From Paralimibaculum aggregatum (GTDB taxonomy: Bacteria > Pseudomonadota > Alphaproteobacteria > Rhodobacterales > Rhodobacteraceae): a stretch of 64,000 nucleotides of DNA. Shown here in pieces: positions 6,907 through 64,000 of the stretch. How positions within the stretch are numbered: position 1 is the first letter of the stretch; each line of letters starts with the position of its first letter. The stretch lies in NCBI RefSeq assembly GCF_030270585.1, contig NZ_BSYI01000025.1, positions 1-64,000 of the forward strand, given 5' to 3'. The position numbers and the translations under genes are program-made. The notes beneath the pieces were generated by a model. It was given only the letters and a program-made list of their open reading frames with translations, made no database searches and had not been told where the DNA came from.

Positions 6907-7223
6907 TGGCGGCCAAGCTGAAGAAGGGCGACAAGGTCGTGGTCATCACCGGCCGCGACAAGGGCAAAGAGGGCGAGATCCTCGAGGTGCGCCCGAAGGA
7001 GGGCCGCGCCATCGTGTCCGGCGTCAACATGGTGATCCGGCACACCAAGCAGAGCGCGCAGAGCCAGGGCGGCCGGATTCCCAAGGAATCGGCGATCCAG
7101 CTCTCCAACCTCGCGCTGGTCGATCCCGAGAAGGGCGGCCCCACCCGGGTCGGCTTCAAGTTCCTCGAGGACGGCACCAAGGTGCGCTACGCCAAGAAAT
7201 CCGGGGAGGTCATCGATGGCTGA
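6906..7223 (+). CDS. rplX: 50S ribosomal protein L24
   Basis: L24 initiates assembly at the 5' end of 23S rRNA. The 105-residue product has an N-terminal KOW motif ([20 protein letters not shown]). ATG at 6906 overlaps the rplN stop by one base. A GTG one codon earlier is the only other start and is less likely. The 3' end overlaps rplE by 8 nt, so the pair is translationally coupled. Confidence 0.97.
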
Positions 7224-33475: not shown

Positions 33476-36400
33476 TCAGCGGTTCTTGAGCTGCTGCAGG
33501 ATGGCGAAGGGGCTGTCCGGGTCGACCGGCTTGTCGTCGCGCGGCTTGCCCTGGCCGCGGCCCTGCTGGCGGCCGCCGCCCTCCTGCTCGCGCGGCGGCT
33601 TGCCCTTGCCCTTGCCGCCGGGGCCGCCCTGGCGCTCGCGGTTGCCGGGGCCGGCCTCGGCGCCCTGCGCAGCTGGCCGGGACCGGTCGCGCCCGCCGCC
33701 ATTGCCGCCGCCGCTGCCGCGCTGCTGCTGGCCGCCGCGCGGGCCACGGCGCTGGCCCTCGGGGCGGGCCTCCTGCCCGGCCTCGCCCTCGGCACCCTGC
33801 GGGCCGCGGCGTCGCTTGCCGCCGCCGCCGGGGGCGCGGCGGGGGCGGAGGGTGAAGGTGAAGAAGACCTCCTTCTCGGCCGCCGGGGCAACCTCGCCGG
33901 AAGCGCTCTCGGTGGTGGCCACTGCGGAGGCCGCTTCCGGTTCCGTCGCCTCCGCCTCAGGGGCCGGGGTCTCGGCTGCCGCCTCTGCCGGGGCCTCGGA
34001 CCCGGCCGCGGCGGTTTCGGCCGCCGGCTCGGTAGATGCCGCGGCCTCGGGGGCAGGGGTTTCGGCTGCCGCCTCCGCCGGGGCCTCGACCCCGGAGACC
34101 GCGGTTTCGGTCGCCGCCTCTGCCTGGGCTTCCGACTCGGGAGTCGCGCTCTCGGTCACCGCCTCTGCCGGGGCTTCTGCCTCGGGCGCAGGGCTTTCGG
34201 CTGCCGCCTCAGCCGGGGCTTTGGCCTCGGAGACCGAGGACTCGGATGCCGCCTCGGCCGGAGCTTCGGCCACGGAGGCCGGGGTCCCGGTTGCCGCCTC
34301 GGCCGGAGCTTCGGCCTCGGAGGCCGGGGTCTCGATTGCTGCCGCGGCTGCGGGAGCCGCAGTCTCGGTCTGCGCCTCTGCCTCGGCCGCGGTCTCGGCC
34401 GCCGCCTCCGACGGTGCTTCGGCTGCCGGGGCGGGGGGCTCGGCGGCCGCTTCCGCCTCGGGCTCGGATGCCGGCGCATCCGCTGCCGGGGCCCCCTTGG
34501 CGCCGCCGCCGGCGCGCGACTGGGTGCGCGCGGTCTTCTCGCGCTCGCCGCGCTCGGCCTGGAAGCCGAGGCCGTTCATGATCTCGGCAAACTGCTCCAG
34601 GGTGCAGCCGGTGATCGAGAGCATGTCCGGGGTCGCCTCGAAACCTGCCTTGGCGTCGAGCGGGCGGATCATGTCGGCCAGGCGCTCGAGCATGTCGATG
34701 CGCACCGCGCGGGCGCCGCAGAGCCGGTAGCCGGCCTTGTCCCAGTAGCCCGGCGGCATGCCCTCGACCTTCGGCACGGTGACATGGCCGGCGGGCGGCG
34801 GCGCCGGGATCTCCTCATGGCCCTCGGAAAGGCTCCAGAGCAGCAGGCGCAGCTGCGTCGGCTTCGGCTTCAGCAGCGCCGGCATGAAGATCGTGTGCTG
34901 GCCGAAGCGCACCCCGTGCTTGCGCAGCAGCGCACGCTCCTCCTGCGCCAGCGCCTTGATGTCGTCGGCGATCTGGCGGCGCGGGATCACGCCCATGGCC
35001 TCGACCATCTGGAACGCGACGCCGCGGGCCAGCCCGGCCACCGTCTCGTCGTCGCGCATCGCCAGCAGCGGCTCGAACTGCGCGGTGATCCGGCGCTGGA
35101 TCCAGTGCCCTAGGCGGCGCTCGATCTTCTCCTTCACCGTCGGCTCGGCGCTGTCGTCGACGAAGGCCTCGATCTTCGGCGCCAGCAGCTCGTCGCCCCT
35201 GACCAGCTTGCCGACGACGTTCTCGTCCCAGACGAAGCCGCCCTGCTCGGTGAGCGAGATCGCGGTGTCCGGCGCGAGATAGAGCCGGTCGGCCCGCCGC
35301 GCGAGCTCGCCCTGCAGCGCGCCCATCGAGGCCGAGCGCAGGGTCTTGATCTCGTCCGGGCTGGCGGTTTCGTCGAGGGTGAAGCGGAACCCGTCGATCC
35401 GGCCGAGATACTCGCCCTCGACCGAGACCTCGCCCTTGTCGTTCACTTCGGCCACGAGCCGCTCCTTCTGCTTCAGCCGGCGCATCAGGACGCTGGTGCG
35501 CCGGTCGACAAATCGCTGTGTCAGCCGCGCATGCAGGGCATCCGACAGCCGATCCTCCACCGCGCGGGTCGTGGCCTGCCATTCCGCGGCATCCTCGACC
35601 CAGGCGGCACGGTTGGCCACATAGGTCCAGGTGCGGATATAGGCGAGCCGCTTGGCCAGCGCATCGATGTCGCCCTCCGGACGGTCGATGCGGCGGACCT
35701 GCCCCGCGATCCAGTCGGAGGGTATACAACCCGATGGCCCGAGCAGGAACCTGTAAATGCGCCCGACAAGCGCGACATGCTCGGTGCCGGCCACCTTTCG
35801 GAAGTCCGGGATCTGGCAGGTGTCCCACAGCAGGCGCACCCGGTCGGGCCGACCGGCCAGCGCGCGGACCTCGCCATCCTCCCAGAGCGCGCGCAGCGTC
35901 GCCTGGTCCTCGGCCTCGCGGGCGCGGGCGAGATCGGGGCTCTGCGGCGCCTCGTCGAGGCTGGCCATCAGCCGCGGCACCGAGCCGAAGTCGAGCCGCG
36001 AATTGCGCCACATGAGCCGCTGGATCGGCTTGAAACGGTGGTTTTCGATGGCATCGACCACTTCCGGCTCGAGCGGCGCGGCCTCGCCGGTGATGCCGAA
36101 GGTGCCGTCGCGCACATGCCGCCCGGCGCGCCCGGCGATCTGCGCGAGCTCGTTGGCCTGCAGCCGGCGCACGCCGCGGCCGTCGAATTTCGAGGTGCCG
36201 GCGAAGGCCACGTGGTCGATGTCGAGATTGAGCCCCATGCCGATCGCGTCGGTCGCGACGAGGTAATCCACGTCGCCCTGCTGATATAGCGCGACCTGCG
36301 CATTCCGGGTCCGCGGCGAGAGCGCGCCCATCACCACGGCGGCTCCGCCGCGCTGCCGGCGAATCAGTTCGGCGATGGCGTAGACCTGATCGATGGAGAA

Positions 36401-60530: not shown

Positions 60531-62471
60531 ATGGGGTTTCCGCCGCATCTGCTGGATGAGCTGCGCAACCGCCTCACGCTCTCGGAGGTGGTCGGCGGCA
60601 AGGTCGTCTGGGATGCGCGCAAGTCGAACCCGGCGAAGGGCGACTGGTGGTCGCCATGCCCGTTCCACCAGGAGAAGACCCCGTCCTTCCATGTCGACGA
60701 CCGCAAGGGCTTCTACTACTGCTTCGGCTGCCAGGCGAAGGGCGATGCGGTGACCTTCGTGATGGAGACCGAGAACCTCTCCTTCCCCGAGGCGGTGGAG
60801 CGGCTGGCCGAGCGGGCCGGGCTCGAGATCCCGCGCGAGCGCGCCGATCCGCAGGCCGAGGCGCGGCGCGACCGGCGCTCGCGGCTGGCGGAGGCGATGG
60901 AGATGGCGGTGGCGGCCTTCGGGCGCGCGTTCCGTGCGGGGCAGGGCGCGCGGGCGCGCGACTATGCCGCCGGGCGCGGCCTCGCGGCGGAGACGCTGCA
61001 GCGCTTCGAGATCGGCTTCGCGCCGGATGCCCGCGGCTTTCTCACCGAGATCTTCCGGAGCAAGGACATGCTCGCCGAGGCGGTGGAGGCGGGCCTCCTG
61101 ATCGCGCCCGAGGATGGCGGCGCGCTGTTCGACCGGTTCCGCGACCGGCTGATCTTCCCGATCCGCGACGCGCGCGGGCGCTGCATCGCGCTGGGGGGGC
61201 GGGCGCTGGGCCCGAACGCGCGGGCGAAGTACCTCAACTCGCCGGAGACGCCGCTCTTCCACAAGGGCCGCACGCTCTACAATCACGGGCCGGCGCGCGA
61301 GGCGGCGGGCAAGGCCGGCCAGCTCGTCGTGGCCGAGGGCTACATGGACGTGATCGCGCTGGCGCAGGCGGGCTTTGCCCATGCGGTGGCGCCGCTCGGC
61401 ACCGCGATCACCGAGGAGCAGCTGCAAATGCTCTGGAAGATCGTGCCGGAGCCGGTGATCGCGCTCGACGGCGACGCGGCGGGCCTGCGCGCGGCGCATC
61501 GGCTGATCGACCTCGCGCTGCCGCTGCTGGCGCCGGGGCGGAGCCTGCAGTTCTGCCTGATGCCGGCCGGCCAGGACCCGGACGACCTGATCCGCGGCGG
61601 CGGGCCGGCGGCGATGCAGGCAGCGCTCGATGCCGCCGAGCCGCTGATCGCGGTGCTCTGGGCGCGCGAGCTCGGGGCCCATGCGCTCGACACGCCGGAG
61701 CGGCGGGCGGCGCTCAAGGCCCGGCTCGAGGCGGCGGCGGGGAAGATCGGCCATGCCGAGCTGCAGCGGCTCTATCGCGAGAGCCTGACCCGGCGGATGC
61801 GCGAGCATTTCTGGGAGCTCGACCGGCCCTCCCGCGGTGGCGGAGCGGCGGGCGCCCGCGGCGGCGGCGGGCGCCGGCGCCGCGCCGAGGGCGCGCAGGC
61901 GCAGACCCGGGCCTCGATGCTGGCCCGCGGGGTCGACGGGGCGGCGCAGCACCGGGCGCGCGAGGCGGTGGTGCTGGCGCTGGCGCTCGGGCATCCGCAG
62001 ATCGTGCTGGCCGAGGCCGAGGCGCTTGAGGCGATGCCGCTCAGCCACCGGCCCTTCGAGGCGCTGCGCGGCGCGCTGATCGCCGCGGCCGAGGCCGGCG
62101 AGGACGCCGATGCCGCCGCCCGCGCCGCGGCGCCGGAGGCCTATGAGGAGATCCGCCGCGAGGCCGCGCGCCATCCGCTGGCCCGCCCCGATGCCGACCC
62201 GGACCGCGCCGCGCTGGTGCTGGCCGAGGCGATCGCCCGCCACACCGCGCTGGTCGGGCGCGAGGCGGAGCTTGCCGAAGCCGCGCGCGAGCTGCCCGAG
62301 GCCGATGGCGAGGACTGGACATGGCGGGTGCGCCAGGCCGGGCAGGGGCCCTTCGCCGCCGAGGCGCGGGCGCTGCGTGCCGAGGAGGAAGCGTCGAATC
62401 GCGGGCGCCGCTCGCGCGTCGCGGACATCATTGCCCGTTACCAAGGCTCCACGGATCTGCCAAAAAAGTAG
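60531..62471 (+). CDS. dnaG: DNA primase DnaG
   Basis: DnaG makes RNA primers at the replication fork with DnaB. The 646-residue product has the N-terminal CHC2 zinc finger (CPFH at about 43-46, then CFGC at about 64-67) and the TOPRIM active site (VVAEGYMDVIALAQAG and VIALDGDAAGLRAA). The C-terminal helicase-binding region is Ala/Gly-rich with a flexible stretch about 430-460. ATG at 60531 gives the typical GFPPHLLDELRNRLTLSEVV. It precedes rpoD, as in the conserved dnaG-rpoD pair. Confidence 0.97.
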   Translation: MGFPPHLLDELRNRLTLSEVVGGKVVWDARKSNPAKGDWWSPCPFHQEKTPSFHVDDRKGFYYCFGCQAKGDAVTFVMETENLSFPEAVERLAERAGLEIPRERADPQAEARRDRRSRLAEAMEMAVAAFGRAFRAGQGARARDYAAGRGLAAETLQRFEIGFAPDARGFLTEIFRSKDMLAEAVEAGLLIAPEDGGALFDRFRDRLIFPIRDARGRCIALGGRALGPNARAKYLNSPETPLFHKGRTLYNHGPAREAAGKAGQLVVAEGYMDVIALAQAGFAHAVAPLGTAITEEQLQMLWKIVPEPVIALDGDAAGLRAAHRLIDLALPLLAPGRSLQFCLMPAGQDPDDLIRGGGPAAMQAALDAAEPLIAVLWARELGAHALDTPERRAALKARLEAAAGKIGHAELQRLYRESLTRRMREHFWELDRPSRGGGAAGARGGGGRRRRAEGAQAQTRASMLARGVDGAAQHRAREAVVLALALGHPQIVLAEAEALEAMPLSHRPFEALRGALIAAAEAGEDADAAARAAAPEAYEEIRREAARHPLARPDADPDRAALVLAEAIARHTALVGREAELAEAARELPEADGEDWTWRVRQAGQGPFAAEARALRAEEEASNRGRRSRVADIIARYQGSTDLPKK

Positions 62472-62484
62472 CGCTGCCCCCTTC

Positions 62485-62643
62485 GAATCAGTGAGTCGCA
62501 CCCTAATTGCCTATATCACGCGGAGGATTGCCGAATCTGATTCGGCTGGCGGGGCTCACAGGTGGGGCTCGGCGGGCGGGCCCGGGGCAGGGCGGCGCAG
62601 CTGGCGCCGCGAATGCCGGGACAAGCCGGCTTTGAACGGACTC
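62485..62643. promoter_or_regulatory. Cluster of five GANTC sites in the dnaG-rpoD gap
   Basis: GAATC (62485), GAGTC (62493), GAATC (62533), GATTC (62539) and GACTC (62639) all lie in the 189-nt gap. Two of them sit in a perfect 17-bp palindrome, GCCGAATC-T-GATTCGGC (62530-62546). GANTC is the CcrM methylation site in alphaproteobacteria and is rare in DNA of this GC content. Confidence 0.75.
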
Positions 62644-62660: not shown

Positions 62661-64000
62661 ATGGCGCCCAAAGACGAAGAGCAGACTGAGAGCGAGACCA
62701 CCGAAACCCAGGGCCCCATGCTCGACATGAGCCAGGCCTCCGTCAAGAAGATGATCGCCAAGGCCAAGGCCAAGGGCTTCATCACCTATGACGAGCTCAA
62801 CCGCGTTCTGCCTTCGGACCAGTTCTCCTCGGAGCAGATCGAGGACGTGATGGCGCTGCTCTCCGAGATGGGCGTCAACGTGGTCGAGGACGACGGCGGC
62901 AACGAGGCCGAGCCCGAGCCCGAGCAGGCCGAGAGCCGCGAGGTCGTGCCGACCCAGCCGCAGGCCTCCGAGAGCGACCGGACCGACGACCCGGTGCGCA
63001 TGTATCTGCGCGAGATGGGCACCGTCGAGCTGCTCTCGCGCGAGGGCGAGATCGCCATCGCCAAGCGCATCGAGGCCGGCCGCGCCACGATGATCGGCGG
63101 TCTCTGCGAGAGCCCGCTCACCTTCCAGGCGATCACCATCTGGCGCGACGAGCTGGTCGAGGAGAAGATCCTGCTCCGCGACGTGATCGACCTCGAGACC
63201 ACCTTCGGCGAGGCCAACGAGGAGGAGGAGCTCGAGACCATCACCCCCGGCGCGCCCGAGGCGGCGGCGCCGGCCGCGGGCGCCGAGCATCGCCCCGCCG
63301 GCGCCGCACCCGCGGCACGCCCCGCCGGCGAGCGCCCCGAGGGCGAGGCGGGCGCCGCGGAAGGCACCGAGGCCGAGGCCGAGGACGAGGATGCCCAGGC
63401 CAATCTCTCGCTCGCCGCGATGGAGGCCGAGCTCAAGCCCGCGGTGCTCGAGCGGCTCGACGAGATCGCCTCGAACTACGAGCGCCTGCGCGAGCTGCAG
63501 ACCAAGCGCATCGGCGCCGCGCTGACCGCCGGCCAGAGCTTCTCGGCGCCGCAGGAGCTGGAATATCAGCGCCTGCGCCGGGAGATGGTCGGCCAGGTCA
63601 ACGCGCTGCACCTGCACAACAACCGGATCGAGGCGCTGGTCGACCAGATCTACGGCATCAACCGCCGGCTGATGAACCTCGAGGGCCAGCTGGTGAAGAT
63701 GGCGGACTATTACCGCGTCAATCGCAAGCAGTTCATCGAGGCTTATCGCGGCTCCGAGCTCGACCCGGACTGGATCGACCGCGTCGCGCAGCACACCGGC
63801 AAGGGCTGGGCCAAGATGGTGGATACCGAGCGCCACCGCATCCACTCGATCCGCGCCGAGATCGGCGAGCTCGGCCACCATGTCGGGCTCGACATCCCCG
63901 AGTTCCGCCGCATCGTGCAGACGGTGCAGAAGGGCGAGAAGGAGGCCCGCATCGCCAAGACCGAGATGGTCGAGGCGAACCTGCGCCTGGTGATCTCGAT
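62661..64000 (+). CDS. rpoD: RNA polymerase sigma factor RpoD (partial, cut by window edge)
   Basis: RpoD is the main sigma factor. About 446 residues are visible. The start is ATG 62661 (MAPKDEEQTESETTETQGP) after AGAGGGATCG. Region 1.1 (SQASVKKMIAKAKAKGFITYDELNRVLP), region 1.2 (DDPVRMYLREMGTVELLSREGEIAIAKRIE) and the non-conserved region with an acidic Ala/Pro/Glu insertion are visible. The end of the window reaches EANLRLVIS at region 2. Regions 2.2 to 4 lie outside. Confidence 0.97.
   Translation, partial: MAPKDEEQTESETTETQGPMLDMSQASVKKMIAKAKAKGFITYDELNRVLPSDQFSSEQIEDVMALLSEMGVNVVEDDGGNEAEPEPEQAESREVVPTQPQASESDRTDDPVRMYLREMGTVELLSREGEIAIAKRIEAGRATMIGGLCESPLTFQAITIWRDELVEEKILLRDVIDLETTFGEANEEEELETITPGAPEAAAPAAGAEHRPAGAAPAARPAGERPEGEAGAAEGTEAEAEDEDAQANLSLAAMEAELKPAVLERLDEIASNYERLRELQTKRIGAALTAGQSFSAPQELEYQRLRREMVGQVNALHLHNNRIEALVDQIYGINRRLMNLEGQLVKMADYYRVNRKQFIEAYRGSELDPDWIDRVAQHTGKGWAKMVDTERHRIHSIRAEIGELGHHVGLDIPEFRRIVQTVQKGEKEARIAKTEMVEANLRLVIS

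Follow-up and report, generated by a model that had tools for sequence, protein, structure and literature searches.

What a dense group of GANTC sites does in front of the gene for the primary sigma factor is the question raised by the dnaG-rpoD intergenic region of Paralimibaculum aggregatum, a member of the Rhodobacteraceae. The window, that is, the whole stretch of DNA that was analysed, comprises 64,000 nucleotides of contig NZ_BSYI01000025.1. An earlier note on this DNA had drawn attention to five GANTC sites at 62485-62643 upstream of rpoD, and all five were found at these coordinates (Table 1); likewise, the 17-bp palindrome that was said to hold two of them is real, with 8-bp arms that match perfectly and a single base between them. 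In the accessible part of a study of Caulobacter crescentus, activation by GcrA is tied to the word TGATTCG and, more broadly, to YGAKTCK (PMC7987155). The evidence assembled below suggests that the intergenic region contains an rpoD promoter, which is probably a target of GcrA and CcrM.

The region between dnaG and rpoD

Table 1. Genes, GANTC sites and inverted repeat at the dnaG-rpoD locus (window coordinates).
Feature	Position	Strand	Sequence or evidence	Remark
dnaG, DNA primase, 646 aa	60531..62471	+	ORF; TIGR01391 394 bits, above cut-off	upstream neighbour
Sixth GANTC (GAATC)	62396..62400		CGAATCG, YGAKTCK on the other strand	inside the dnaG 3' end
GANTC (GAATC)	62485..62489		CGAATCA, TGATTCG on the - strand	first site of the inverted pair spaced by 8 bp
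GANTC (GAGTC)	62493..62497		TGAGTCG (YGAKTCK)	second site of the inverted pair spaced by 8 bp
17-bp inverted repeat	62530..62546		perfect 8-bp arms, 62530-62537 and 62539-62546	one base between the arms
GANTC (GAATC)	62533..62537		CGAATCT, not YGAKTCK	left arm of the palindrome
GANTC (GATTC)	62539..62543		TGATTCG (YGAKTCK)	right arm of the palindrome
GANTC (GACTC)	62639..62643		GGACTCT, not YGAKTCK	18 bp 5' of the rpoD start
rpoD, primary sigma factor	62661..64000	+	start 62661	cut by the window end

The protein encoded downstream of the sites was identified as RpoD by a profile search, in which the window protein matched sigma-70 regions 1.1 and 1.2 and the non-essential region; the profile NF004208 gave 345 bits on this truncated protein and did not reach its cut-off of 555. 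The YGAKTCK form is present at three of the five intergenic sites (62485, 62493 and 62539) and also at the site inside dnaG (62396).

The expectation of roughly 0.4 sites that the earlier note had put forward for this length agrees with the local base composition, which gives 0.48 sites per 159 bp, but it disregards that GANTC is depleted in this DNA. The window contains 53 GANTC sites compared to a shuffle mean of 286, and 303 sites were counted in 464 kb of this genome; at this density of 0.65 per kb, only about 0.10 sites are expected per 159 bp. The Poisson tail for five sites in 159 bp is approximately 9e-8, a value that applies to a region picked post hoc and is uncorrected for scanning. 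Within the 464 kb, the rpoD upstream region is the only place with five GANTC sites within 159 bp and the only one with three YGAKTCK sites within 70 bp, and four GANTC sites within 159 bp occur at three other places. Elsewhere in the window, a smaller group of three sites in 110 bp lies at 34134-34243, and an inverted GANTC pair, 10 bp apart, is found at 7076-7090. The whole genome contains 92 copies of TGATTCG and six of its reversed word; according to a list read by eye, two copies of TGATTCG lie within 100 bp of each other at only four places, one of which is rpoD.

A special role of the palindrome, as suggested by the earlier note, did not hold up, since only two of 126 rpoD upstream regions from the family, this one included, possess it. 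No terminator-like site was found at the palindrome, and the region has no Rfam match at the gathering threshold. The palindrome was therefore rejected as a terminator or structured RNA on the grounds of these two results and of its recurrence in a single other upstream region. A strict scan detected no standard -35/-10 elements before rpoD in this window, and a placement of these elements by eye was abandoned because it led to incompatible readings across relatives.

CcrM, GcrA and the ccrM upstream region

The genome assembly (5.5 Mb, 201 contigs, 98.7% complete) encodes both a CcrM-like protein, on whose presence the proposal of the earlier note depended, and GcrA. The CcrM-like protein is the single PF01555 match of the genome and carries a C-terminal RAMA domain; its score against NF050803 (607.7 bits) lies under the NCBIfam equivalog cut-off of 830. 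The full-length GcrA reaches 177.4 bits against PF07750 (cut-off 26.9) and 157.6 bits against NF050816, which is under the NCBIfam equivalog cut-off of 280. A second, partial GcrA match exists besides the full-length protein. It arises from a repeat of the 3' part of gcrA approximately 1.3 kb downstream (locus L004, contig G000:C5; 1772-2117 and 3081-3426; 346 bp, 97% identity), which is in frame with another open frame. The search for the GcrA family also returned a match above the cut-off in the Sulfolobus acidocaldarius control, which is unexpected in an archaeon.

The ccrM gene has been described as a likely core target of GcrA in the accessible part of the same study (PMC7987155). Upstream of ccrM in P. 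aggregatum (locus L006, start 1426), two YGAKTCK sites are present, namely CGATTCG three bases past a TTGACA hexamer and CGAATCG closer to the start, and this arrangement is predicted to be a compact GcrA-like promoter. The ccrM and rpoD upstream regions share the YGAKTCK sites; however, ccrM has two of them, one located between TTGACA and the gene, whereas the sites before rpoD are more numerous and a clear -35 element is missing there.

Conservation of the sites in the family

The earlier note had further made its proposal dependent on whether the sites are conserved upstream of rpoD in relatives, which was examined in two sets of genomes of the family. A region was scored as carrying the array if two or more YGAKTCK sites lay in the 230 bp that precede rpoD; the rpoD start codons were assigned by script and are unsure for the divergent genomes G095 and G212. 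The first set consists of 49 genomes including this one. The rpoD gene was found in 46 of them (none in G004, G025 and G037), and two rpoD copies in G044 bring the number of upstream regions to 47. Here, 42 of the 47 regions contain the array (exceptions: L012, L013, L056, L063 and L064) and 40 have at least three GANTC sites; the three genomes of the same genus with rpoD possess five, two and two YGAKTCK sites. A CcrM search among 296 family genomes was positive in 288 (E up to 1e-30), and the second set was composed of six new genomes without CcrM and 74 others with odd index numbers. Of these 80 genomes, 78 have a located rpoD (not G103 and G129), giving 79 upstream regions. The array is present in 72 of the 74 regions that belong to the 73 genomes with CcrM; the two failures are both copies of G201. 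Over both sets, 116 of 126 upstream regions and, among the genomes that have CcrM and in which rpoD was identified, 114 of 117 contain the array, and the sites are hence conserved in the relatives. Two assemblies carry two rpoD-like copies each, G044 (L051 and L056, only one with the array) and G201 (L141 and L218); the second copies, L056 and L218, both without an array, were counted as upstream regions and left out of the tree discussed below.

The first-set upstream regions contain 174 GANTC sites, compared to a mean of 37 and a maximum of 57 in 200 shuffles. It could be argued that such an accumulation arises by chance or reflects nothing but a general enrichment between genes, and an intergenic excess of GANTC of more than 1.5-fold has indeed been reported for Alphaproteobacteria in the accessible part of one study (PMC3973325). 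However, the number of sites is far above the shuffle maximum, and other upstream regions of the family are nearly bare: any GANTC is found in 4 of 19 recA upstream regions (19 family loci out of 30 loci returned) and in 3 of 12 gcrA upstream regions, and YGAKTCK in one region each. A chance cluster was rejected based on the depletion of GANTC, the 464-kb scan and the conservation counts, and general intergenic enrichment was rejected as the full answer based on the recA and gcrA controls, leaving this explanation with hardly any probability.

A further possibility is that the sites serve another purpose of methylation, for instance the local state of the chromosome or the expression of dnaG, rather than rpoD. 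The sixth site inside dnaG and the position of dnaG directly upstream of rpoD, seen at 73 of the 76 family loci for which 900 bp or more of sequence are available, would fit this idea. However, many relatives have their sites concentrated in the last 100 bp or so before the rpoD start (from -176 to -18 in P. aggregatum), and GANTC density amounts to 16.1 per kb in the 230-bp stretch ahead of rpoD versus 1.09 per kb in the upstream coding DNA, which makes a role unrelated to rpoD quite improbable.

The array seems to be a feature of the family. No YGAKTCK site was detected from -300 to +60 of rpoD in any of 23 genomes of other families, 13 of which match both GcrA and CcrM (the 23 were drawn from 30 genomes with an identified rpoD, out of 32 other-family genomes searched). 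The idea that the array is a feature of all Alphaproteobacteria was rejected on this basis.

Extended motif and spacing of the sites

The match to YGAKTCK was noticed after plain GANTC had been counted. In the 126 upstream regions, 444 of the 497 GANTC sites have the form YGAKTCK and 307 are TGATTCG. In the first set, these two forms account for 89% and 65% of the upstream GANTC sites, respectively, compared to 37% and 2% in DNA that flanks the upstream regions at these loci. When the 174 first-set sites are oriented such that N is T or G, N is T in 94%, the preceding base is T or C in 95% and the following base is G in 89% of the cases. The sites also keep preferred distances: the commonest pairs in the 126 upstream regions are inverted with 21 bp (44 occurrences), direct with 13 bp (25) and inverted with 8 bp (24), the last of which is present in this window (62485 and 62493), and differently oriented pairs with 13, 14 or 22 bp occur 17-18 times each. 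One or more of the three commonest arrangements occur in 86 of the 126 regions, whereas 300 randomisations gave 13 such regions on average and never more than 22; this test is generous because the three arrangements were chosen after the counts had been seen.

A conserved word that is longer than GANTC, directional and nearly always has T at the N position, together with preferred pair spacings of the kind expected from a protein that binds as a dimer or in phase, would also be in line with another DNA-binding regulator that reads TGATTCG; the overlap with GANTC would then be incidental, or methylation would merely modulate that protein. Two further observations in its favour, the array in two genomes without detected CcrM and the lack of a correlation with the presence of GcrA, are described in the next section. 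However, TGATTCG is the extended motif reported for GcrA in the accessible part of PMC7987155, no candidate protein for such a regulator was found (one paper on CenKR, which was considered for this role, gave no hits for a motif or binding site), and the array is absent more often where CcrM is missing, an argument that is weakened by shared ancestry. Taken together, an unrelated regulator appears unlikely. The assignment of the sites to GcrA and CcrM itself has to accommodate that Brevundimonas GcrA shows no preference for an extended motif, as stated in the accessible part of the same paper (PMC7987155), which counts against it. Also weighing against it are the lack of a recognisable standard promoter before rpoD, the CcrM and GcrA scores under the NCBIfam cut-offs, and the genomes described below in which array and CcrM do not go together.

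Co-occurrence of the array with CcrM and GcrA

CcrM was not detected in eight family genomes, and rpoD was located in seven of these. The array is absent in five of the seven (G018, G033, G095, G212 and G224) and kept in the other two (G135 and G205), whereas it is absent in only 3 of the 117 genomes with CcrM (G012, G021 and G201, which have both CcrM and GcrA). Fisher's test of array against CcrM, which ignores ancestry, yields p = 5e-6 for both sets together and 0.006 and 0.0005 for the first and second set, respectively. The tree implies a minimum of four changes in the array, and G018, G095 and G212 are placed on very long branches; only two well-supported independent pairs are available for the comparison of array and CcrM, one concordant and none discordant, so that this comparison has no power. 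G012, G021 and G201 are mutual nearest neighbours, so that a single loss suffices to explain why they lack the array despite CcrM. Since the CcrM-less genomes are drafts, the gene may in these cases lie on a missing contig. Because of shared ancestry, the co-occurrence of array and CcrM lends weak support to the proposed methylation-dependent control. GcrA was found in all 49 genomes of the first set and in 21 of 21 genomes of a further sample, including genomes without the array, and its presence is thus no predictor of the array.

Proposed control of rpoD and its implications

If the rpoD promoter is a target of GcrA and CcrM, CcrM would place methyl groups on the adenines of the arrayed GANTC sites, and at least one methylated YGAKTCK site would be bound by GcrA, a protein that acts in association with sigma-70 and would thereby raise the transcription of rpoD. 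Methylation, GcrA binding and activation at rpoD are inferred steps; activation is considered the likeliest effect because YGAKTCK is tied to activation in C. crescentus. Replication would leave the sites hemi-methylated, and the output of the promoter may change as a result; a timing of rpoD expression by replication, as envisaged by the earlier note, is speculative. Cells require their primary sigma factor at all stages of growth, which speaks for a variant of this model without cell-cycle timing, in which many sites would keep at least one of them occupied and ensure a steady output. The presence of several sites per array, with at least three GANTC sites in 110 of the 126 upstream regions, is consistent with this variant, which overlaps with the proposed GcrA/CcrM control as a special case of it and has a realistic chance of being correct, albeit a little short of an even one.

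The closest known counterparts are the GcrA/CcrM promoters of C. crescentus, for instance ctrA P1, podJ P2 and ftsN, which, as far as the accessible descriptions go, likewise have GANTC in the promoter region in the YGAKTCK form in an organism that encodes GcrA and CcrM. In contrast to these promoters, the array described here precedes the gene of the primary sigma factor, comprises several sites with preferred spacings instead of one and is conserved across a different family. In Caulobacter, 108 promoter GANTC sites were assigned to 96 cell-cycle TSSs, and only 11 TSSs have more than one site, according to the accessible part of the study (PMC4287350). The rpoD promoter of Brucella abortus is bound by CtrA (PMC2877005) and is thus another case of an alphaproteobacterial primary sigma gene under a cell-cycle regulator; however, regulator and lineage differ, and the passage in question mentions no methylation sites. 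In the accessible parts of the open-licence literature on GcrA/CcrM, GANTC and Rhodobacter or roseobacters, supplements aside, no report of methylation sites at rpoD was found.

Sparse GANTC sites at ctrA have led to the view that replication-linked methylation may not be of major importance in Rhodobacterales, as stated in the accessible part of PMC8116508, and this counts against the proposed control of rpoD. The rpoD array in 114 of 117 CcrM-bearing genomes in turn argues against judging methylation in this order from ctrA alone.

For the family as a whole, it is proposed tentatively, and with more doubt than confidence, that rpoD is driven by a multi-site methylated GcrA array with preferred spacing, so that a cofactor of sigma-70 would govern how much of its partner is available, and general transcription capacity would be tied to methylation and to the replication of the rpoD locus. 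The family of P. aggregatum also includes the genus Paracoccus. The CcrM homologue of Paracoccus aminophilus methylates GANTC and is essential, as reported in the accessible part of PMC3925955, and control of rpoD would offer one testable reason for this essentiality. If the proposal is true, such control would be found in an order in which it was thought to be minor, and it could be part of the reason why some members cannot do without CcrM. Furthermore, if the sigma-70 gene is itself under the control of GcrA, a large bacterial family would have its general transcription capacity linked to an epigenetic mark.
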